Shown piece after piece: positions 3,942 to 53,096 of a stretch of 64,000 bases of DNA. The translations under genes were made by a program, and so were the position numbers. The stretch is taken from assembly GCA_017397065.1 (NCBI GenBank), contig JAFQKE010000024.1, forward strand, positions 1 through 64,000, written 5' to 3'. Below the pieces are notes generated by a model. That model saw nothing but the letters and a program-made list of their open reading frames with translations. It was not told the DNA's origin and ran no database searches. The stretch comes from Clostridia bacterium. Lineage in GTDB: Bacteria > Bacillota_A > Clostridia > Oscillospirales > Acutalibacteraceae. The stretch's first letter is position 1; each line of letters opens with the position of its first letter.

Positions 3942-3963
3942 TTATCTTGAAAGGATGATTAAA

Positions 3964-4626
3964 ATGAAAAAAATATTATCAATTTGTTTGGTTCTGGTAA
4001 TGGTTATGAGCTTTAATCTTACCGCATTTGCAAAGGGTGGTTTTGTAAATAGCCCCTCAGAGAACCTCGCTCCTGAGATTGTTGATTCCAGTGACGATGG
4101 CATAGTAATTCACTCTTATGCAGATCGTCACGAGCTTACCGAGAAAGAGCGTGAGGATTTGGAAGGTGCATACGATTCTATTAAAGGTAGCACAGATCTT
4201 TCAAATTTAAATACCGCTTTAGGTAGTCTTGCCAAAAATAAAAATATAAACCCTAAAGACCTTTCGGTAAGCGATTTGTTTAATATTGGTTACAACGGAA
4301 AGAATCCTAAAGGTCCTCATTCTATAACATTATCAGCAGATACTTTAAGGAATTTCGTTGCTTTAATGACTTATGTTAACGGTAAATGGCAACTCATTGA
4401 AGGTGCTGAAATCGTGGACGGTAATTTGGTGTTCAATACTGCACAATTTGGTCCTTATGCATTTGTTGTAAACACAAGCGGCGTTGTATCTCCTCAAACT
4501 GGTGTTGCTGATTCAGCTCAGTCAAATTCAAATAATGTGAGCATTATTTTCTATGCAGTTATTATGCTTGCTTCTGCCGGCGCTGCATTAGCGTTATACC
4601 GTAAATCTAAAAAGTACACCGCTTAG
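3964..4626 (+). CDS. small secreted surface protein with SPQTG sorting signal
   Basis: This 220-residue exported protein has a signal peptide at residues 1-22 (cleavage after AFA). The C-terminal sorting signal starts with SPQTG at residues 176-180, then a hydrophobic helix and the basic tail RKSKK. The body is not a family I recognise. SPQTG fits the (S/P)PXTG type known for C. difficile sortase B, so the protein is probably wall-anchored, and the sortase domain at 47125-50010 is a candidate enzyme. An earlier in-frame ATG at 3955 is only 1 nt from AAAGG, whereas 3964 is 9 nt away; I chose 3964. A surface protein inside the polysaccharide operon suggests a role at the wall where polymer is attached. 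Confidence 0.75.
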   Translation: MKKILSICLVLVMVMSFNLTAFAKGGFVNSPSENLAPEIVDSSDDGIVIHSYADRHELTEKEREDLEGAYDSIKGSTDLSNLNTALGSLAKNKNINPKDLSVSDLFNIGYNGKNPKGPHSITLSADTLRNFVALMTYVNGKWQLIEGAEIVDGNLVFNTAQFGPYAFVVNTSGVVSPQTGVADSAQSNSNNVSIIFYAVIMLASAGAALALYRKSKKYTA

Positions 4627-40375: not shown

Positions 40376-42679
40376 CTAATAATTCTTCTTTAAAATGCCT
40401 ACCATAACGGTAATGTCATCGTTGTGACCGTCGCTTCTGCGGCGGCGTGCGGCAAAGGCTATTTCATCAGCCAACTGTTGTGCCGAGCCAATGCTCCACT
40501 GGTTAATTATATTGCTTATCCACTCACTACCCTCGGTAATAACGCCATCCGAAACCATTACAATAATGTCTTCTGCTCTTAAATTTACCGTTGCTTTATC
40601 AAAGCTTATATTGCGTAATATTCCGGGGGGAAGTGAGCGGCTTTCGGCCTTTCCTACACCGGCACTCCTTTTAATAAAGGTGGGCGCCGCTCCGGCTTTT
40701 AAAAGCTCACACTCTCCGCTGAAAAGGTCAATAGTGGCTATATCAATAGTGGCAAGCGATTCATCGGTGGATTTAAATATCATAGATGAGTTTATGATTT
40801 TAAGCGAACAGTCGTAACCAAACCCGCTACGTAGCATTCTGCTAAAAAGTCCCGATACCATTGCCGAGTCCACAGCCGCACGGCCTCCCGTTCCCATTCC
40901 ATCGGAGATAAGCAGTATAAATCTGCCCCGTCCATCACTAAAATACTTTGCAGAGTCTCCACAAAGCTTTCCCTGCTCTTCGGGGATTTGCGAAAGTCCT
41001 ATTTCTATTTTAAAATTAGGACGTTCGGTTATAAATATAAAGGCTTCATCACCTGTGGTGCTAACCATTGGGGTATCAAAATCCCTGCCTACAGCAAGTG
41101 AAAGGTGCTTTAGTATTGTCATTTTGTTAACGGGTATGTCGGTTACACCTTTAATGTGAATATCTGCTGAAATTCGGCCAAATTTGTCCTTGGCGGCAAT
41201 GCAGTTTACAGCGTGGTAACCTATGTTTTTAAGCGATAAAATAATATTCTCTGCCGCCTTGTTATCGTGGCAGACATCATATTTAAATTCGTTTGAAAGG
41301 TCACTCAGCATTCGGGATATTCCGTCAAACTGATCATTTATTACATTTCTTACCTCTCTAAGCCTGAGCTCTGCTGATCTTTTACTTTCATACTCTGAGC
41401 AATGCTTTTTCAAAGCATTTTCAAACTTATTCATTCTAAGGCATTTAAAGTTGGATTCTTCGTCCTTTTCATCCCTTTCAGCTGATGGACGTTTAAGTCT
41501 GTTCCAAGTGGCAAGTGCATCGGTTGCGGTAATTTCTTTTGCAGTTTCCCAGCAATGTCGCCTAAGACTGCATCCTCCGCACACCTCGTCCTCGACTTTA
41601 TTAAGAGTGTAGTCAAAATCAGGGGAATTGATTTTGCCAAGCTTTTTTGCAACATCCTCAACCGTCTCGTATACATCCTTTAAAGCGCCGCTTGCAAATT
41701 CAAGCCGCATAATAAGTGCGCCTTTAACGCTATCCAGTTTTGAAATTTGGGTTGTAGGGGAGAGTAGTCCACCTATGTAGCCTACTAATTTTTTAGGAAG
41801 CAACAAAAAAGCCCCCGAACCGATTACCGCCTCAAAAAACATTACTGAAATGAGTCCGTTTTCGCCTATTATAAAGGTGGAAATCAAGGTGGTTGCAAGG
41901 TATGCCGCTATCATACCTATAGACCCTAAGGCAGAAAAAATTCCACATATCAGTCCTGAAAAGGCGAAGGTTACCGAACCTACAAAATAATCATTTCCGG
42001 CGATTGCCAGAACAAAGCTTATTATAGAGCCGCTTACCGCTCCGTAGGAGGCTTGTCCATACCTTGCGGTTGCAAGAATTACTGAAACGGCTAGAATTCT
42101 GCCTATTGAAAGCTCCAAAATACCATATTTTGAAAGTGATAATAGCAGTACAGCGGCAAAAAAAGATAATGCGGTGGTCTCTTTAATATCTGTCCCGCTT
42201 TTTTCGGTTGGAGATATTTTAAAAACAATCGCTACAAAGTAGGCGGTACTGCTCGCCAGAGCCGCCTCGGTGATAACCATTGTTATATTTCCGCCGTAAG
42301 AGCTGCTGACGGCAAGGCGTATGATTCCCGCTGCAGCAAAGGCAAGACAACCCGAAAAAACAGGCGAATTACTAAACTTTTCATTACCTAATATAATTCT
42401 TACGGTGGTAATGGCAAAAACCGATGCTATGTACACAAAGCCTCCGCCCGAAAGATTAAATAAATAGCCTATTGCCGCCCCTGCGGAGGCGGCAGATAGG
42501 TATTTTCTTTTAACACCGCTTGTAAAGGCTGCTCCAAACGGCAAAAGATTTTTCATTATAGGGGCGTTTGAAAACAAAAATGCACAAATTGCGGTTGCTA
42601 TATGTAAAAGCAGACCGACGGTAGTATCATTTTTTAAGGTCTTTTCTTTTATAAGCTCTGTGGTGGTCGTCTCTTTCAA
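40376..42679 (-). CDS. spoIIE: stage II sporulation protein E (SpoIIE phosphatase)
   Basis: This protein of about 767 residues has ten or so N-terminal membrane helices (to about residue 320), a central region with the Cys motif CGGCSLRRHC, and a C-terminal PP2C phosphatase domain with LLISDGMGTGG, IDIATIDLFSGE and MVSDGV. SpoIIE dephosphorylates SpoIIAA in the forespore and so activates sigma-F. Frames reaching 42754 would start upstream of the promoter -10 (42722-42727), so they are excluded. AAAGG at 42689-42693 is 9 nt from a TTG at 42679 and abuts an ATG at 42688; I chose the TTG, with the ATG as the alternative. Confidence 0.93.
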   Translation of the reverse strand: MKETTTTELIKEKTLKNDTTVGLLLHIATAICAFLFSNAPIMKNLLPFGAAFTSGVKRKYLSAASAGAAIGYLFNLSGGGFVYIASVFAITTVRIILGNEKFSNSPVFSGCLAFAAAGIIRLAVSSSYGGNITMVITEAALASSTAYFVAIVFKISPTEKSGTDIKETTALSFFAAVLLLSLSKYGILELSIGRILAVSVILATARYGQASYGAVSGSIISFVLAIAGNDYFVGSVTFAFSGLICGIFSALGSIGMIAAYLATTLISTFIIGENGLISVMFFEAVIGSGAFLLLPKKLVGYIGGLLSPTTQISKLDSVKGALIMRLEFASGALKDVYETVEDVAKKLGKINSPDFDYTLNKVEDEVCGGCSLRRHCWETAKEITATDALATWNRLKRPSAERDEKDEESNFKCLRMNKFENALKKHCSEYESKRSAELRLREVRNVINDQFDGISRMLSDLSNEFKYDVCHDNKAAENIILSLKNIGYHAVNCIAAKDKFGRISADIHIKGVTDIPVNKMTILKHLSLAVGRDFDTPMVSTTGDEAFIFITERPNFKIEIGLSQIPEEQGKLCGDSAKYFSDGRGRFILLISDGMGTGGRAAVDSAMVSGLFSRMLRSGFGYDCSLKIINSSMIFKSTDESLATIDIATIDLFSGECELLKAGAAPTFIKRSAGVGKAESRSLPPGILRNISFDKATVNLRAEDIIVMVSDGVITEGSEWISNIINQWSIGSAQQLADEIAFAARRRRSDGHNDDITVMVGILKKNY

Positions 42680-42721
42680 AATGGTCATCCTTTCGGCAAA
42701 AAAAGTATCTTGTTTCATATA

Positions 42722-42768
42722 ATTATAAGCTACTCTTGCCGAAGATTCTGTCAAAACAGGATGTCGAG
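42722..42768 (-). promoter_or_regulatory. Spo0A-type spoIIE promoter with 21-bp spacer and two 0A-like boxes
   Basis: On the minus strand, TTGACA (42754-42749) and TATAAT (42727-42722) are separated by 21 bp. That spacing is the known peculiarity of Spo0A-dependent sigma-A promoters such as Bacillus spoIIE and spoIIG. On the plus strand, TGTCAAA (42749-42755, overlapping the -35) and TGTCGAG (42762-42768) each match the Spo0A box TGTCGAA at 6 of 7 positions. Confidence 0.75.
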
Positions 42769-44755: not shown

Positions 44756-44790
44756 AAAATAGAATATTTGTATTATGAAGAGGTATGCGC

Positions 44791-45927
44791 TTGGAACGTC
44801 TAATTTATCTTGATAACAGCGCCACCACCAAACCCTGCAAGGAGGCTGTGGCGGCGGCGGTTAATGCTATGGAAAAAAGCTATGGCAATCCTTCATCACT
44901 TTATGAGTTTGGAATGATAGCCGAGGATGAGGTCACAAAGGCTAGAGAGATTTTGGCTAAAGCTCTTTTTTGTCGTGATGATGAAATATATTTTACTTCC
45001 TGCGGAAGCGAGAGCAATAACACTGCAATTCTAGGAGCGGCTAAACTGCTTTGCCGTAGTGGTAAACACATTGTAACAACAACTATTGAACATCCTTCGG
45101 TTTTAGAGCCTATAAACGCTTTGGAAAAAGAGGGGTACGAGGTAACAAGAATCGCTCCGAATTCCGGCGGTTTGATTTTGGAGTCGGATATTAAAAATGC
45201 CATTCGTAAGGATACGGTTTTAGTATCAGTTATGTATGTTAATAATGAAGTAGGGTCAATTCTTCCGGTGGAAAAAATCAAAAATTTCTGCAAAGAAAAG
45301 GGGAGTCCCGCTTTAGTTCATATAGATTGTGTGCAGGCTTTTGGAAAAATTAAAATCAATGCCAATTCAATTGGTGCAGATTTAATTTCGCTAAGTGCAC
45401 ATAAAATCCACGGAATAAAAGGCGCAGGAGCGCTGTTTGTTAAAAAGGGCGTAAGATTGCCGGCGTTTATAATGGGCGGAGGTCAGGAAAAAGGGCTTCG
45501 TTCGGGAACAGAGGCGGTGCCCGCAATAGCGGCTTTTGGTGCCGCAGTAAAGGCTTTGCCCGATTTAACTAAAGCCGCCGATAAGGTTTCAAACATTAAA
45601 AACTACTGCATAGAAAAATTAAAAGAATTTGAAAATGTGGTTATAAATTCAGCCGAAAACAGTAGCCCGTACATACTTAATTTTTCTTTTTCGGGTTATC
45701 GTTCCGAAACTATATTACATCATTTGGAAAGGTATTCTATTTGTGTTTCAAGCGGTAGTGCCTGCAGCAAGGGAAAGGGAAGCTATGTATTGCGTGAAAT
45801 GGGGCTTAGTCAAGCATTGGTAGACAGTGCCATAAGATTAAGCTTCAGCCGTGAAACCGAAGCTTTAGATATTGATAAGCTGGCAGAGGCTTTAAAAACG
45901 GCACTCTGCCTTAGAAAATCAAAATAA
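44791..45927 (+). CDS. cysteine desulfurase
   Basis: This 378-residue PLP enzyme of the NifS/IscS class has YLDNSATT at the N-terminus, TSCGSESNN, SAHKIHG with the PLP lysine at residue 205, and the catalytic cysteine in SSGSACSKG. It takes sulfur from cysteine for thiolation. thiI follows after 13 nt, so tRNA 4-thiouridine is the likely product. GAAGAGG (44777-44783) is 7 nt from TTG 44791 but only 1 nt from an in-frame ATG at 44785; I chose the TTG, giving MERLIYLDN. Confidence 0.92.
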   Translation: MERLIYLDNSATTKPCKEAVAAAVNAMEKSYGNPSSLYEFGMIAEDEVTKAREILAKALFCRDDEIYFTSCGSESNNTAILGAAKLLCRSGKHIVTTTIEHPSVLEPINALEKEGYEVTRIAPNSGGLILESDIKNAIRKDTVLVSVMYVNNEVGSILPVEKIKNFCKEKGSPALVHIDCVQAFGKIKINANSIGADLISLSAHKIHGIKGAGALFVKKGVRLPAFIMGGGQEKGLRSGTEAVPAIAAFGAAVKALPDLTKAADKVSNIKNYCIEKLKEFENVVINSAENSSPYILNFSFSGYRSETILHHLERYSICVSSGSACSKGKGSYVLREMGLSQALVDSAIRLSFSRETEALDIDKLAEALKTALCLRKSK

Positions 45928-45940
45928 TCAGGGAGACATT

Positions 45941-47110
45941 ATGAAAGAGATTATCCTTATAAAAAACGGTGAATTGGCCCTAAAGGGTCTTAACCGAATG
46001 AATTTTGAAAACGCACTTATAAAGAACATTAAAACAGCTATAAATGGTCTGGGTGCTACTAACATTACACGTGCACAGTCTACAATTACAATTGAGCCCG
46101 ATAAAGAAGATTATCCCTTTGAGGAAGCATTGCAGAAAATTAAAAAGGTGTTCGGCATAGCGGCTTTTTGCCGTGCGGCCGCCGTTAATAAAGATATGGA
46201 TGAAATTATAAAACAATGCGTTCCATATCTTAAAAACACGATGCAGGGTGTAAAAACATTCAAGGTAGAGGCCAAGCGGGCCGATAAAAAATTTCCACTT
46301 ACCTCTCCTGAAATTTCACGTTTGGTTGGTGGAGAACTACTTAAAAACTATCACCATCTTAAAGTAGATGTCCATAATCCCGAGATTGTGGTAACGGTGG
46401 AGATAAGAGATAAATGGGCATTTATACGTGCAGGTCAGATTCACGGCGCAGGCGGTATGCCTGTAGGAACGGGAGGTAAATCCACAATTTTAATTTCCGG
46501 TGGAATAGATAGCCCCGTTGCCGCATGGATGATGGCTAAAAGAGGAATTGAGCTTAATGCAATTCACTTTGCAAGCCCACCTTACACCAGTCTAAGAGCC
46601 GAGCAAAAGGTTAAAAAGCTGCTCAGCAGAGTGGCAGCCTATAGCGGTCCAATCCGTATGGGAATAGTTCCATTTACTGAGCTTCAGCAAACAATAGCGG
46701 ATAATTGTCCCGAAGAATATTTTACGCTTATTATGCGTCGTATGATGATGCGAATTAGTGAGCGGCTGGCAAAAAGGTCAAAAAGTCTTGCACTTATCAC
46801 AGGGGAGAGTGTGGGTCAGGTTGCAAGTCAGACCTTGCCGGCACTTGTTACAACCGACGCTGTTGTTAATATGCCAGTTTTTAGACCTTTAATAGGTATG
46901 GATAAGGATGAAATAGTTGAAATTTCCAGAAAAATAGATACCTTTGAAATTTCAATAGAGCCGTATGAGGATTGTTGTACAGTCTTCACCCCTAAGCATC
47001 CACGCACACGCCCCACGATAGAGCAATGCGAAAATGCGGAGGCTATGTTTGATTTTGAACCCCTTATTGAGCAGGCGGTTGAAAACACTGTTTTTGAGGT
47101 TATTGAATAG
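45941..47110 (+). CDS. thiI: tRNA 4-thiouridine sulfurtransferase ThiI
   Basis: This 389-residue protein has an N-terminal ferredoxin-like part, a THUMP domain (about residues 60-165), and a PP-loop adenylating domain starting at SGGIDSP (about residue 185). No C-terminal rhodanese domain is present, as is usual for Gram-positive ThiI working with a partner cysteine desulfurase. The partner is the gene just upstream. It makes s4U8 in tRNA; the thiamine role may be absent without rhodanese. Confidence 0.94.
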   Translation: MKEIILIKNGELALKGLNRMNFENALIKNIKTAINGLGATNITRAQSTITIEPDKEDYPFEEALQKIKKVFGIAAFCRAAAVNKDMDEIIKQCVPYLKNTMQGVKTFKVEAKRADKKFPLTSPEISRLVGGELLKNYHHLKVDVHNPEIVVTVEIRDKWAFIRAGQIHGAGGMPVGTGGKSTILISGGIDSPVAAWMMAKRGIELNAIHFASPPYTSLRAEQKVKKLLSRVAAYSGPIRMGIVPFTELQQTIADNCPEEYFTLIMRRMMMRISERLAKRSKSLALITGESVGQVASQTLPALVTTDAVVNMPVFRPLIGMDKDEIVEISRKIDTFEISIEPYEDCCTVFTPKHPRTRPTIEQCENAEAMFDFEPLIEQAVENTVFEVIE

Positions 47111-47124
47111 AGGAGTAGTAAAAA

Positions 47125-50010
47125 ATGAATGCTGAAATAATTTGTGTAGGTACCGAGCTTTTGCTTGGCGATATTTTAAACACAAACGCTAAGTTTTTAT
47201 CAGAAAGGTTAGCAGAGCTTGGTTTTAATTTGTTCAGCCAGTCTGTGGTAGGTGATAATGCAGAGCGTTTGGAACGTCAAATAGCCGTTTCGTTATCGCG
47301 AAGCAATATTGTTATTTTAAGCGGTGGTCTCGGCCCTACAGATGATGATATTACCAAGGAAACTGTTGCTAAGGTTTTGAATCTTACCTTGGAGGAGGAC
47401 GAGGAAAGCCTTAAAAGAATAGAGTCGTATTTTGCCCTTACTGGTAGAAGAATGAGTAGTAATAATAGAAAACAAGCTATGAAACTCAAAGGCTCTACCA
47501 TTCTTGTTAATGAGCATGGTACAGCCCCCGGTATATTTTTAGAGGTTCCAAGCGGTGCGGTAATTCTTTTGCCCGGACCACCATCCGAGCTGGTTCCCAT
47601 GTTTAACAACAAGGTTGTTCCATTGCTTAAAAAGTTTAGCAACAGCGTTATTGTTTCGCACAATGTACGCATTTTTGGTGTTGGTGAATCGGCTGCGGCT
47701 GAAATATGCGGAGATTTGCTTAATGGCTCCAATCCCACAGTTGCAACCTACGCTAAAACCGGTGAGGTGGATATACGTGTAACCGCTTCGGCTGAAAGTT
47801 ATGCTGTGGCAAAATCTCTTTGCGCTCCAATTGTTCAGCAAATAAAGGATTTGTTTGGTAATCACGTTTATGGTGTAGATGTTGAAAACCTCCAACAAAA
47901 GGTGGTTGAAACATTAAAAAGCAAAGAAATGAAAATAGCTACCGCTGAGTCTTGCACAGCCGGTATGCTTTCGGAAAGAATAACCGAAGTTTCCGGTGCC
48001 AGTGATGTTTTCGAAATGGGCGTTACGGCATATGCTAACTATGTTAAAATACAAGCCCTTGGTGTAGATGCTGAGGTTATCGAAAAAAAGGGTGCCGTCT
48101 CCGATGAGGTTGCCGTTCAAATGGCAAAAGGAATTAGGGCTATGTGCGGTGCCGATATAGGTGTTGGCATTACGGGTGTCGCAGGGCCCGGACAGAGCGA
48201 GGGTAAGCCGGCAGGACTTGTTTATATCGCTTTGGCAGATAGCGAAAAGGTTTTTGTTCGTAAAATTATGTCCAGAGGCACCGATAGAGATACAACCCGC
48301 ATTATCGCAACATCCACAGCACTTGATATGGTAAGACGTTATTTAGAGGGCTGTACGGATTTAATTTCGTTTGGTACCGCTTACGGAGAGCCTTTAAAGC
48401 TTATGGAGGGTTATGAGGATCCAAAGAACTCAAAAATAGCATCCCAAAAAGCTCAAGATGCGGAGGAAAATTTGCTTCAGATTTACACCGACGAAGAGCT
48501 CATGGATATGTTTAATACCGTTGATGAGACAGCAATTGTTGAAGAGGAGCTTCCCGATAAACTGGAAATTGCCGACGATTCAATAAACTTTGTTTTTGAT
48601 GATGACGAGGCTGATACCGATACCAACAGTTATTATCAGGTTGGCAAAATTACCGATTTTCTTCAAAATCTTGAGCAGGCCGATCAGGTAGAAAGCAATG
48701 AAAATAAAGAGGAGCCTCAAGAAAAAGATATGAAAAAAGCTAAAGACTCCGCACCTGCAAAAAAACGTGGATTTTTCGGTTCGTTTTTCCCTTGCAGAGG
48801 TGATTCCGTTTCTGAAAAAATCAGAAAAATCATCTTTTTAATTGCATTTTTAGTCCTTATAGGTACCACCATTTATCTTGTTAATTATTTCATCGAGGGT
48901 TGGGATGCACAGAACCTTATTTCCGATGCCGCTGAGGTTTGGGAAGATGATAATAGTATGAACAAAAATGATGACGGTATGTTTATAGGATTCGAAACTC
49001 TTAAAAAGCAGAATTCCGATATAAAAGCTTGGATAAAAATTGACGGCACAAACATAAACAACCCTGTTTATCAGCGGAAGAAAAGTGATAAAGACGGTAA
49101 TGAGTTTTATGTTGAGCACGATATGGCAAAAAAGCCCAGCAGATACGGTGCATTATTTATTGATAAAAATGCAAAAATAGGCAAGGTTCGAAACAGCAAA
49201 AACGTTGTAATTTACGGCCACCATATGAGAGATGGCACAATGTTTGGACCCTTAAAAAGCTACACCGATATTTCTTTTTATAAAAAACATCCTATTATAG
49301 ATTTCACAACACTCTATCAAGAAGGTAAATATAAGGTTTTTTCTGTGTTTATAACAAATACTATTGAATCGCACGATAATGGCGAGGTGTTTAATTATTG
49401 CAGAGAAAGCTTCCATAGTGACAGCGATTTTCTTGGATTTATTGATGATGCTAAAAAACGCAGTATTATAGATACAGGCGTAGATGTATCATATGATGAT
49501 GAAATAATAACACTTTCAACCTGTACCTATGAGTTTGATGAAGCCCGACTTGTTGTTATGGCTCGTAGGGTGCGTGATGGTGAAACAAATATTACCGATA
49601 CAAACGCTGCCAAGGTCAACCCCAATCCGCTTTATCCTCAGATTTGGTATGATTTAAAGGGCGGTAAAAAGCCGGTATTCTCTAGCACTCCGTCAACCTC
49701 ATCTGAACCTGTTTCTTCTGAGGAGCCTTTGGTATCTGACACCTCCTCAACCTCAAGCGATGCATCTTCAAGCAGTCAGCCTGCTAATTTGACCGATAGC
49801 AGCAAGCAGCAGGGAACAACCGCTTCAACTAATACTAATACCTCAAGCAAGCCTACTTCAAGTAAACCCACTTCAAGCAAACCGGTGACAAGTAAGCCTA
49901 CTTCAAGCAAGCCTACATCTAGCAAGCCTACTTCAAGCAAACTTACAGAATCCTCATCTTCAAGCGTTCCGGAGGCAGCAGTTACCTCAGAACCAAGTGC
50001 AGGACAGTAG
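47125..50010 (+). CDS. CinA fused to a membrane-anchored class-B-like sortase
   Basis: This 961-residue fusion has four parts. Residues 1-415 are a full CinA: an MoCF-like domain (GTELLLGD, GGLGPTDDD, LLPGPPSEL) and an NMN amidase domain (TAESCTAG near 270, GVAGPGQSEGKP). Residues 415-560 are an acidic, disordered linker. Residues 568-590 are a single membrane helix. Residues 610-835 are a sortase with catalytic His699 (YGHHM), Cys800 (LSTCTYEF) and Arg808. A Ser/Thr/Pro tail with TSSKP repeats ends it. Topology fits: CinA inside, sortase outside. The frame is continuous with no stop. An internal ATG (48730) with AAAGAGGAG upstream could also yield sortase alone. It starts 14 nt after thiI. 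Confidence 0.88.
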   Translation: MNAEIICVGTELLLGDILNTNAKFLSERLAELGFNLFSQSVVGDNAERLERQIAVSLSRSNIVILSGGLGPTDDDITKETVAKVLNLTLEEDEESLKRIESYFALTGRRMSSNNRKQAMKLKGSTILVNEHGTAPGIFLEVPSGAVILLPGPPSELVPMFNNKVVPLLKKFSNSVIVSHNVRIFGVGESAAAEICGDLLNGSNPTVATYAKTGEVDIRVTASAESYAVAKSLCAPIVQQIKDLFGNHVYGVDVENLQQKVVETLKSKEMKIATAESCTAGMLSERITEVSGASDVFEMGVTAYANYVKIQALGVDAEVIEKKGAVSDEVAVQMAKGIRAMCGADIGVGITGVAGPGQSEGKPAGLVYIALADSEKVFVRKIMSRGTDRDTTRIIATSTALDMVRRYLEGCTDLISFGTAYGEPLKLMEGYEDPKNSKIASQKAQDAEENLLQIYTDEELMDMFNTVDETAIVEEELPDKLEIADDSINFVFDDDEADTDTNSYYQVGKITDFLQNLEQADQVESNENKEEPQEKDMKKAKDSAPAKKRGFFGSFFPCRGDSVSEKIRKIIFLIAFLVLIGTTIYLVNYFIEGWDAQNLISDAAEVWEDDNSMNKNDDGMFIGFETLKKQNSDIKAWIKIDGTNINNPVYQRKKSDKDGNEFYVEHDMAKKPSRYGALFIDKNAKIGKVRNSKNVVIYGHHMRDGTMFGPLKSYTDISFYKKHPIIDFTTLYQEGKYKVFSVFITNTIESHDNGEVFNYCRESFHSDSDFLGFIDDAKKRSIIDTGVDVSYDDEIITLSTCTYEFDEARLVVMARRVRDGETNITDTNAAKVNPNPLYPQIWYDLKGGKKPVFSSTPSTSSEPVSSEEPLVSDTSSTSSDASSSSQPANLTDSSKQQGTTASTNTNTSSKPTSSKPTSSKPVTSKPTSSKPTSSKPTSSKLTESSSSSVPEAAVTSEPSAGQ
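49840..49944 (+). repeat. 15-bp coding tandem repeat (TSSKP)
   Basis: Seven in-frame 15-bp units encode TSSKP, with one VTSKP and a final TSSKL. It forms a proline/serine-rich tail of the sortase fusion, possibly a wall-spanning or flexible segment. Repeat number may vary between strains. Confidence 0.8.
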
Positions 50011-50102
50011 TTCTAACAATAATGCAGAGGGCAGCTAACATATATTAGTTATGTAGAACAGTTATAAAATCATTAAACAACTAATCAGTAAGGAGAATTT
50101 AA

Positions 50103-53096
50103 ATGGTTCCGGACCTCACTTTAGAAGTCATATATTTAAATCAACCAACCGACTTTAAAATGGAGTTTGAGCTTTGCGGCAGTTCAAATGTCCGCTTTTT
50201 AAGCCTGCCCGTAAAAAGTCACGCAGAATTTCTAAGTGTTATTTCTAAAAGTGTTGTTCGTAGCCGTGCTATAATTACGGTGGGTAGCTTTAATCCTTTG
50301 GATAAGCTTTATATTCCCAGAATTATTGCAAAGGCAACGGGATATGAGTTAAAGGCGGTGGAGAATGAAAAGTTTGGCATCGCCTCAGAAAATGCTGTTT
50401 TGCTTCCCGAATCTTCTTTGCCACTTGTAGACGAAAACGGAAACCTTGGTGGTTGCGTTTTAGAAAGTAATGATCAGGTTATAATTATGCTCACATCTGA
50501 CAGAGAGTTGCGTCATAGCATAGTTACAAATTTGGTTTGCCCGTATTTAAAACTTTTTGGCAGCAAAGAAACAAAGCGCTTCAAAAACATCTCTCTAGCA
50601 CATAGTGCCACAAGGAAGGTAACTAAAGAGGCAGAGCAGGAACAACCGGGTCAATCTCAAACCGAGCCTATACAAAATGCATCGGAAGAAAAAGAGCCTG
50701 ATGCGGAAGATAATAATATTAACTCTTCTGATTCTACAAATTCTTCTGATTCTACAAATGAAACGATTACCGATGCTTTTTCTGACATTCTTAAAAAATA
50801 TGATATTCCTTTTACTCCTCAAGCAGCGGTTATTCCCGAGACTCCTGATGTTATAGTGAGCCCCGCCGTTTCTGATGAATCAGAGAACTCTAACACACCC
50901 GTTATCCCTTTGGTGCAAACTATTCCGGAATCTTTGGATGAGCCTGAAATTCCAGCAGAGTCCGAAGCAATTGAGAATCCTGAACAACCCGAAATGAATT
51001 TAGAGCCCGAAAAAACCGACATACCTTTAACTGTTGATGTGCCACAAGAAAGCGAACCTATTGCCGAGGATTTCAGCGAACCGGCAGAGGATACTTCACA
51101 AAAATCAACAGAGCAATCAAATGGGCAGTTGCCACAGTATTCTATATTAGAGCAACCGGGTGCAAATGATGTTCCGGCCTTTGATTTAAGTGGTTTTTTA
51201 ATTGAAGATGATGAATACGAAGCTAAAAAACCTAAAAAACGCAAAGGCGTACTAAAGGCTATAATCTCAATTATTTTGGTATTAGCGGTGCTTCTTGCCT
51301 CGTATTTCGGGTATGATCTTTTTTTCCAACCAATGCAGCGGGATAACGTGTATGAAGAAGTAAGAAATATGTACGGTCAAACATGGGAGAAGCTTCCCGA
51401 GGATATGTTATACAAATTTGGTAAGCTATATCAAACAAATTCTGATATATATGGTTGGCTTAGCGTACCAAATACCAATATCAATCTGCCGGTTGTAAGC
51501 TCGGCTGAGAAAGCGTCAAGCTATTATCGTTCCCATCTTTTTGAGGGTAGCGTAAACCGTTATGGTACACCATATACTCCATCCAAAGTAGTTAAGGATA
51601 ATTATCACAGAAATATCGTTATTTACGGTAAAGACACCAATGATGATGTTATGTTTTCTGAGCTTGATAAGTTTTTGGATATTGAACAGTATAAGGATGT
51701 GCCCGCCTTTACCTTTGATACATTATATTTAGAAAACAAATGGAAAATCTTTTCAGTATTTAAAACAAAATCACAAAAGAAAAACGATTATCTTAAAACC
51801 GATTTTTTTGATGATACAGAGTTTTTAGAGCATATAAAGCTTTTGGAAAAGGTTTCAGCTATCGATACGAATATAGATGTTACATACACAGATCAGATTG
51901 TTACGTTGGTTGCGCAGGCAGATGAGACCGATGTTATTCTGGTTGCAAGAAGAGTGCGTGACGGCGAATCCCCAATGGTTGATGTCACAGGCTCTACCGA
52001 AACCTATGATGTGCAGAACAAAAACGATGTTCCGGTTGTGGCTCAGCCTATGAAACCAATAGATGAATCTTCGAAAGAGGGCGATGGTTCCGAGCTTGTA
52101 GATTCAAATATGATAGATGGTGCTTCAAGTCGTTTTGAACAGCAGGGCACAAATTCCACCATTACCATAAAGCCCACAGCTCCTACAATTTCTTCTGTGC
52201 CGGATATTTCATCCGAAAAGCCCTCATCCTCAAAGCCATCTTCTTCCTCAAAAACAAGTAGTGTGACATCGTCTGTTTCTTCAAATACACCTGCTAACAA
52301 CAACCTACCGATATTAACCGTCACAAACACCTTTAACAAGGCAAAGGTTAAGGGAAATGCGCTAGATATAATCGCACAGAATATTGAGGCTGAAATGGGC
52401 TCAAGTTATCATATAGAAGCACTTAAAGCTCAGGCGGTTGCCGCCTATTCTTGGCTTTTGAACAATGGCTCTGCAAACGGTAAATACCCCAGCCTGCCGC
52501 TTAAGACTCCCAGCAAAAAGTGCATAGAAGCAGCAAATGCGGTTGCGGGTCAGGTTGCTGTTTATAATGGCAAAGTTGCAACAACATATTATTATGCAAT
52601 TTCAGCAGGACGCTCATCCTACAGTCAGAACATATGGTCAACAGCAATTCCTTATCTTGTTAGCGTTGATTCATCGGTAGATAAATCGGTTAAGGGCTTT
52701 CAGACAATACGAAAATATTCAGCCGATGAAATAGCTCAAAAAGCTAAAAAGCTTTTGAATGTCGACCTTACTAAAATAACCGACAAAAACAAGTGGTTTA
52801 CCTGCAGTTATGATGTTAATGGACTATATTGCACTAAGGTAAAAATAGGAAATGTTGAGAAAAAAGGCACCTACTTGCGTGAAACTTTCTTCAATTATGA
52901 TTTGCGTTCCAGCGCATATACAATATCTTATAATAAAAATGAGGACAACTTTATTTTTACCGTAAAAGGCTATGGACACGGTGTTGGTATGAGTCAGACC
53001 GGTGCAAATCAATACGCCAAAAGCGGTTGGAATTATGAAAAAATATTAAAGCATTATTTTACAGGTATCTCGCTTGGTACTTATTATGTAGATTAG
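50103..53096 (+). CDS. degenerate MoCF - transmembrane - pseudosortase - SpoIID fusion
   Basis: This 997-residue protein repeats the layout of its upstream neighbour in decayed form. Residues 1-165 align with the CinA MoCF domain (SVVRSRAIITVGSFNPLDK against the GGLGPT region), but the active motif is lost. An acidic, Pro-rich linker follows to about 380 and a membrane helix lies at about 386-405. Residues 420-625 are sortase-like, with YGKDT in place of YGHHM (Lys510), Gln605 for the Cys and Asp for the Arg, yet the ARRVRDGE end is kept. A Ser-rich linker leads to SpoIID (740-997) with EALKAQAVAAYSW and GYGHGVGMSQTGAN. The SpoIID domain is probably an active peptidoglycan lytic transglycosylase. 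The ribosome site is AAGGAG. Confidence 0.88.
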   Translation: MVPDLTLEVIYLNQPTDFKMEFELCGSSNVRFLSLPVKSHAEFLSVISKSVVRSRAIITVGSFNPLDKLYIPRIIAKATGYELKAVENEKFGIASENAVLLPESSLPLVDENGNLGGCVLESNDQVIIMLTSDRELRHSIVTNLVCPYLKLFGSKETKRFKNISLAHSATRKVTKEAEQEQPGQSQTEPIQNASEEKEPDAEDNNINSSDSTNSSDSTNETITDAFSDILKKYDIPFTPQAAVIPETPDVIVSPAVSDESENSNTPVIPLVQTIPESLDEPEIPAESEAIENPEQPEMNLEPEKTDIPLTVDVPQESEPIAEDFSEPAEDTSQKSTEQSNGQLPQYSILEQPGANDVPAFDLSGFLIEDDEYEAKKPKKRKGVLKAIISIILVLAVLLASYFGYDLFFQPMQRDNVYEEVRNMYGQTWEKLPEDMLYKFGKLYQTNSDIYGWLSVPNTNINLPVVSSAEKASSYYRSHLFEGSVNRYGTPYTPSKVVKDNYHRNIVIYGKDTNDDVMFSELDKFLDIEQYKDVPAFTFDTLYLENKWKIFSVFKTKSQKKNDYLKTDFFDDTEFLEHIKLLEKVSAIDTNIDVTYTDQIVTLVAQADETDVILVARRVRDGESPMVDVTGSTETYDVQNKNDVPVVAQPMKPIDESSKEGDGSELVDSNMIDGASSRFEQQGTNSTITIKPTAPTISSVPDISSEKPSSSKPSSSSKTSSVTSSVSSNTPANNNLPILTVTNTFNKAKVKGNALDIIAQNIEAEMGSSYHIEALKAQAVAAYSWLLNNGSANGKYPSLPLKTPSKKCIEAANAVAGQVAVYNGKVATTYYYAISAGRSSYSQNIWSTAIPYLVSVDSSVDKSVKGFQTIRKYSADEIAQKAKKLLNVDLTKITDKNKWFTCSYDVNGLYCTKVKIGNVEKKGTYLRETFFNYDLRSSAYTISYNKNEDNFIFTVKGYGHGVGMSQTGANQYAKSGWNYEKILKHYFTGISLGTYYVD

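Follow-up and report, generated by a model that had tools for sequence, protein, structure and literature searches.

The 64,000-nucleotide stretch of DNA analysed here (the window; Clostridia bacterium, assembly GCA_017397065.1, contig JAFQKE010000024.1, positions 1 to 64,000 of the forward strand) carries a gene (50103..53096, forward strand; all coordinates are window positions) for a 997-amino acid protein in which a pseudo-MoCF domain, a linker, a transmembrane helix, a pseudosortase B, a Ser/Thr-rich linker and a SpoIID domain follow one another. The pseudo-MoCF domain (residues 1-155; 50103..50567) is predicted to be cytoplasmic and shows a CinA-type fold without the GGLGPT and PGPP motifs. 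An acidic linker (residues 166-375; 50598..51227) is predicted as disordered (predicted local distance difference test score, pLDDT, mostly < 50) and counts 50 Asp and Glu against 9 Lys and Arg in its 210 residues. A long helix (residues 381-423; 51243..51371) contains the transmembrane segment and leads into the pseudosortase of class-B fold (residues 432-622; 51396..51968). The second linker (residues 630-733; 51990..52301) has 35 Ser and Thr and 9 Pro among 104 residues, and the SpoIID lytic transglycosylase-like domain (residues 736-996; 52308..53090) completes the chain. A likely ribosome binding site (AAGGAGA, 50090..50096) precedes the gene. All of these features lie on the forward strand.

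The motif KKPKKRK ahead of the transmembrane segment predicts the N-terminus inside, and the family agrees with this: among 121 proteins (the query and 120 listed of 196 homologs, for which the 7996 best candidates had been scored), a simple scan places a hydrophobic stretch in 121/121 and finds its N-terminal side more positive in 115/121. The MoCF domain is thus predicted inside, with sortase and SpoIID outside, and the modelled protein would be a bitopic membrane protein made of two dead enzyme folds and a SpoIID domain with its catalytic Glu kept. An earlier note on this DNA had proposed that a dead sortase fold holds the peptidoglycan enzyme at the membrane. The joining of dead sortase and MoCF folds to SpoIID is borne out across the family; the anchor is the predicted transmembrane helix (about 381-404) and not the sortase fold. 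A window scan for sorting signals, limited to hydrophobic C-termini, did not flag the protein and pointed instead to an open reading frame at 3955-4626. Annotation gives PASTA domains to 28 of the 120 listed homologs (P0088-P0120); in P0088 and P0092 they stand between pseudosortase and SpoIID, and P0092 is without a MoCF domain.

The gene order in the window is iscS, thiI, cinA::srtB, the target gene, a PyrK-like gene and gltA, with small gaps. Cysteine desulfurase (NifS/IscS type; 44785..45927) and the tRNA uracil 4-sulfurtransferase ThiI (45941..47110) are recurrent upstream genes, and the immediate neighbour on the same strand (47125..50010) is the proposed partner, here called CinA-SrtB. 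It comprises a full CinA (MoCF, KH and PncC domains), a linker, a transmembrane helix, a class-B sortase with the intact triad H699, C800 and R808, and a C-terminal tail that is long and rich in Ser and Pro. In the 92-base gap (50011-50102) between CinA-SrtB and the target gene, the scan lists no terminator-like site; the scans as a whole were near chance (promoters 36 vs 28.4, standard deviation 5.4; terminators 9 vs 10.4, standard deviation 3.0), and this negative is all that we draw from them.

H699, C800 and R808 of the neighbour align with K510 (51630..51632), Q605 (51915..51917) and D610 (51930..51932) of the target, so that all three catalytic residues of the sortase are replaced, as the earlier note had it. 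The loss extends through the family: the catalytic His is found in 0/121 members in both alignments made, and the catalytic Arg in 4/121 and 2/121, respectively. The fold is nevertheless predicted as that of a sortase, matching B. anthracis 2oqz (29% identity) and S. aureus 4lfd (26%) over 208 aligned residues each, while the class-B family TIGR03064 scores 112 bits, below its curated cut-off of 153.75. The predictions for residues 420-625 (sortase) and 1-165 (MoCF) likewise agree with the earlier assignment, neither segment adopting an unrelated fold.

What has been conserved in the pseudosortase differs from what has been conserved in its live relatives. Twelve columns are fixed in live sortases (at least 80%) and not in dead ones, and seven of these are the triad, the two residues preceding the Cys, and the equivalents of Asn92 and Leu96 of S. 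aureus SrtB. The latter two belong, with Tyr128 and Tyr181, to the reported substrate contacts of that enzyme (PMC5118464). By residue numbers placed by counting along the alignment, Asn92 is retained as Asn in 6/121 and Leu96 as Leu in 3/121 members, so that these two contacts are mostly lost; the Tyr128 equivalent is Tyr in 89/121 and the Tyr181 equivalent in 61/121. Conversely, 14 columns are fixed (at least 75%) in the dead family only, L479 (98%), Y491 (92%), T489 (89%) and D539 (89%) among them, and the Y491 column stands on both lists, being Phe in live and Tyr in dead sortases. Mean column information is 2.27 in the dead vs 2.09 in the live set; since the dead set is more closely related, we put weight on the column pattern and not on this mean. 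Compared with the window, the pseudosortases of loci L001, L003-L007 and L073 are 77, 69, 55, 58, 52, 45 and 43% identical and the live sortases 80, 70, 62, 70, 61, 50 and 53%, the difference being small in L001 (77 vs 80%) and L003 (69 vs 70%) and wider in L005 (58 vs 70%) and L073 (43 vs 53%). Linker identity across the same seven loci is 23-57%. Chance or a pseudogene was considered and is ruled out, as the frame is intact in independent genomes and, in some close relatives, conservation of the dead sortase comes near to that of the live one.

The N-terminal domain tells a parallel story of fold kept and motif lost. It is predicted to have the MoCF fold, and the same search patterns that find GGLGPT-like and PGPP-like motifs in 27/31 and 24/31 CinA N-termini find each of them in 0/85 family members, in keeping with the noted loss of GGLGPT. 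KH and PncC domains, both present in the neighbouring CinA, gave no Pfam or NCBIfam match in the target protein at E up to 1. Between the two neighbours the MoCF domains are 28% and the sortases 41% identical. Elsewhere, a lone pseudo-MoCF gene of 147 amino acids lies directly behind a live sortase gene (L086:7548-7991), and two proteins (L088:6145-8538, 797 amino acids; L101:4494-6863, 789 amino acids) have a CinA-MoCF-like N-terminus, a transmembrane segment and SpoIID with no recognisable sortase between; their middle part may be a further decayed sortase.

The third active site is kept. E764 (52392..52394) aligns with the catalytic Glu101 of C. difficile SpoIID (a number obtained by counting along the aligned structure chain index), whose change to Ala is reported to inactivate the enzyme and to abolish complementation of sporulation (PMC6221140). 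The Glu is invariant in an alignment of 76 sequences. In a second comparison it is present in 26/26 sortase-fused SpoIIDs, in 15/17 other SpoIIDs of the locus (the remaining 2 being gaps) and in 4/4 canonical ones. In the GYGHGVGMSQ stretch of the 26 fused loci, H959 is retained in 24/26 and Q965 in 26/26. Both the curated cut-off and the fold of SpoIID/LytB (TIGR02669 / PF08486) are reached, whereas the equivalog TIGR02870 (stage II sporulation protein D) scores 143.3 bits against a cut-off of 234.75. Inspection of the alignment by eye did not recognise the C. difficile zinc motif (H134, C140, H145, C146) in the target; one reported view is that this motif occurs in C. difficile SpoIID only (PMC6221140), and we do not hold its absence against SpoIID activity. 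By its sequence, then, the lytic domain that the earlier note saw added at the protein end is an apparently intact cell-wall cutting domain.

The wider locus was surveyed in 81 loci, 41 from one contig scan and 40 stretches from searched genomes (L042-L071 are excluded from the counts; a short order-level trial on 10 genomes added nothing). From 76 of these, 125 sortase rows were collected. Sortases in SpoIID-containing proteins are dead in 25/26 cases, and those in pseudo-MoCF proteins without a SpoIID match in 3/3, whereas sortases in CinA proteins without SpoIID are intact in 21/23 (L093 and L099 being dead). The stand-alone sortases comprise 65 intact and 8 partial rows (L010-L012 without His; L037 and L091 split, two rows each; L100 without an aligned Arg). 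Within these counts the rows of L089 and L107 cover part of the domain, so that the Cys column is the sole basis for calling L089 dead, and in L078 that column is a gap. Among the 21 fused loci with a complete neighbour row (L001, L003-L007, L009, L072-L081, L083, L087, L092, L093), the neighbouring sortase is live in 20. The stand-alone sortase-like genes without His in L010-L012 (L010:9749-10708, L011:9713-10690, L012:6112-7047; 311-325 amino acids) follow CinA-SrtB, with no SpoIID match alongside.

The arrangement of these genes varies. Twenty fused loci (L001, L003-L006, L009, L072-L077, L079-L083, L087, L092, L093) have thiI upstream of cinA, with small gaps in many; L007 has no ThiI match in the 627 bases visible ahead of cinA before the contig end, and the remaining fused loci are cut off too early to show it. 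In the unfused state, thiI is followed by a short PncC-only cinA, three live sortases and a separate SpoIID (L016, L023, L026, L028, L030, L039, L090) or by the same genes with one sortase (L095-L097). In L083 (5754-9233) and L087 (4996-8460), CinA, dead sortase and SpoIID form a single protein, and a separate live sortase lies between iscS and thiI, so that thiI separates the live from the dead copy. L082 has this order in one protein with an intact sortase. These fusion states of CinA, sortase and SpoIID, together with the unfused rows, suggest a common task. As to what the live sortase might anchor, an open reading frame at 3955-4626 (223 amino acids; no NCBIfam match at 1e-10) ends in SPQTG with a hydrophobic segment and the tail RKSKK, a C-terminus similar to the (S/P)PXTG signals reported for C. 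difficile SrtB (PMC5118464); by sequence, its product is a candidate substrate of CinA-SrtB.

A tree of 118 sortase domains addresses the origin of the dead copies. It was built by a quick method without bootstrap, with the triad columns blanked and the partial or near-duplicate rows of seven loci left out, except one L091 row. In it, a single 30-row group of dead sortases (support 85; 87 for a 27-row part) takes in 22 of the 23 that are fused to SpoIID, and the label of SpoIID-fused dead sortase needs 4 changes vs 21.4 in shuffles. The dead group is nested in a 99-row set (support 99) made up of sortases of this locus and some stand-alone ones elsewhere (e.g. L013, L015, L017). The best reading of these sequences is duplication within the locus, with one loss of catalysis or a small number of them, and with fusion on repeated occasions.

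Based on this evidence, we tentatively regard the protein as an adaptor with SpoIID as its live domain, a reading that has a real chance of being correct and that we hold with reserve. It builds on what was computed, namely the identity of the domains, the loss of two active sites and the retention of the third, the predicted topology, and the tight pairing of the genes. The dead halves would have arisen by duplication among the sortase proteins of this locus and would now bind partners: the pseudo-MoCF domain would pair inside the cell with the MoCF domain of CinA or with another cytoplasmic protein, and the pseudosortase would pair outside with the live sortase. SpoIID would thereby be kept at the site at which the sortase links proteins to newly made peptidoglycan. 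There it would cut peptide-free glycan strands, so that the wall is opened or trimmed; we would expect this during growth or division and not during engulfment. That a dead and a live copy share one locus in 20 of 21 readable cases, and that the fusions take several forms, speaks for pairing or docking and not for simple holding. Somewhat less likely, though a fair possibility, is the wider picture of the live/dead pair as a transmembrane machine of gut Clostridia, in which CinA-SrtB and the target, joined via their MoCF and sortase halves, would anchor proteins and cut the surrounding glycan.

Several observations weigh against the adaptor. The binding of the dead halves to CinA-SrtB, the cutting by SpoIID near the anchoring site and the timing in growth are inferred, the structure predictions being of single chains only. 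The neighbouring CinA-sortase of L093 is dead as well, and L082 (1158-4787) presents CinA, a live sortase and SpoIID in a single protein. Pseudo-MoCF and pseudosortase occur without SpoIID in L085 and L100 and the pseudo-MoCF occurs by itself in L086, so that SpoIID is not obligatory. On the tree, the dead group leaves out L076, whose branch is very long, and the dead CinA-sortase of locus L093, and support is under 80 at 42 of 115 inner branches. A Cys occupies the catalytic position in 7/121 members in the second alignment (0/121 in the first), and it stands one residue ahead in 19/121 in the first, which may explain the difference between the two; none of these proteins has the His. In 7/7 compared loci, moreover, conservation of the pseudosortase is somewhat lower than that of the live sortase, and its substrate groove, being partly kept, might still bind peptide.

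Could the dead domains bind nothing specific, the transmembrane helix serving as anchor and the pseudosortase with its linkers setting the reach of SpoIID? A predicted helix would suffice for anchoring, the linkers are variable, and some relatives carry PASTA domains at the very place between pseudosortase and SpoIID. Such a tether is nonetheless unlikely, for a spacer needs neither a class-B sortase fold conserved at 43-77% identity with family-specific fixed residues nor a live sortase in the same locus. Alternatively, the pseudosortase might regulate SpoIID or act as a receptor of sorting signals or cell-wall precursors, binding without cleaving and switching SpoIID in the manner of inactive LytM domains. 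The two partly retained groove tyrosines would fit this role, which we consider improbable given that loss of the Asn92 and Leu96 equivalents makes the usual binding of sorting signals unlikely. In a division scaffold of the Glp/gephyrin type, the pseudo-MoCF domain would bring SpoIID to the septum by binding a protein of the cytoskeleton or the divisome, and sortase pairing would be secondary. Such a scaffold finds a precedent in the known reuse of the MoCF superfamily, Glp (MoeA-like) being reported to bind the C-terminal domain of FtsZ and to have a membrane receptor (PMC10522489). The lone pseudo-MoCF gene of L086 and the proteins of L088 and L101 would also accord with it. For the target, the comparison with Glp/GlpR of Actinobacteria and with gephyrin is an analogy only, Glp being of MoeA type with a separate membrane receptor, unlike the target, and we judge this scaffold very improbable.

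The remaining alternative is a sporulation enzyme: the protein would be an additional SpoIID that serves engulfment or remodels the wall later on, and its sortase fold would be a legacy anchor. It was weighed against 35 genomes, 28 picked for a sortase-SpoIID match and 7 for the locus without such a match. SpoIVA is matched in 32/35 (28 over cut-off) and SpoIIP in 30/35 (29 over cut-off); most of the genomes carry sporulation genes, and no clear non-sporulating carrier was found among the 35 tested. The fused SpoIID is the only one matched in G001, G025, G065 and G089, and the window itself has a divergent spoIIE-like gene on the reverse strand (40376-42754), about 7 kb upstream of the locus, at 371 bits below the cut-off of 490.8. 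Against this, 24 of the 28 fusion genomes have another SpoIID_LytB gene that passes the cut-off (in part a fragment, G062), and the four canonical SpoIIDs compared group in a clade of their own (support 97), separate from those that are fused. The ThiI gene ahead of cinA and the reported location of a chlamydial SpoIID homolog at the division septum (PMC6635528) also speak against it. The sporulation role thus appears distinctly unlikely. The second SpoIID and the operon-like iscS-thiI link lean toward action of the target in growing or dividing cells, away from engulfment. Separately, genome G006 has a SpoIIE homolog near its canonical SpoIID (L109).

With respect to known systems, the target differs from the SpoIID of the sporulation DMP complex (C. 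difficile 5i1t, B. anthracis 4rwr) by the added pseudosortase and pseudo-MoCF domains, the score below the equivalog cut-off, the absence of a recognisable C. difficile zinc motif, and the second SpoIID in most fusion genomes. It shares the whole fold of class-B sortases (2oqz, 4lfd) and differs from them by the replaced His, Cys and Arg, the two changed substrate contacts, and the position of the fold mid-way in a larger protein. From CinA (T. thermophilus 4cta, Thermoplasma 3kbq) it is set apart by the missing KH and PncC matches and the two lost motifs. Inactive wall-enzyme folds serving hydrolases are already known in another fold: the LytM domains of EnvC, NlpD and ActS are inactive. These three are described as LytM-domain activators (PMC12440217), and DipM as an inactive wall-enzyme fold that drives hydrolases (PMC10336132). 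The likeness to these regulators is that the fold of a wall enzyme, itself without activity, works alongside active hydrolases; in the target, by contrast, the dead fold is a different one, sits in the hydrolase's own chain and shares its locus with a live paralog.

Searches of the openly licensed PubMed Central (PMC) literature brought up no paper that, judged by title and the opening of its abstract, describes a SpoIID-sortase fusion, a CinA-sortase fusion or a sortase pseudoenzyme family. No mention of a pseudosortase was found in that literature, and the papers on inactive sortases concern Lactococcus pili. Nothing in it joins at least three of thiI, cinA, sortase and Oscillospir, and SpoIID occurs together with the PASTA domain only in a spore-formation review.

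Lastly, if the pairing is true, this would be the first sortase pseudoenzyme family known from the openly licensed literature to work as adaptors, with the CinA-type fold as a cytoplasmic hub. Sortases are known as transpeptidases; a conserved family in which the active site is lost, the fold kept and a glycan cutter joined, mostly with a live sortase in the same locus, would imply that sortase folds have structural or regulatory duties in wall machinery as well. By their recurrence, the fusions also tie CinA, whose cellular role is poorly understood, to the cell envelope. Taken together, the locus suggests that in a family of gut Clostridia dead enzymes have been reused to join the cutting of the wall with the anchoring of proteins.

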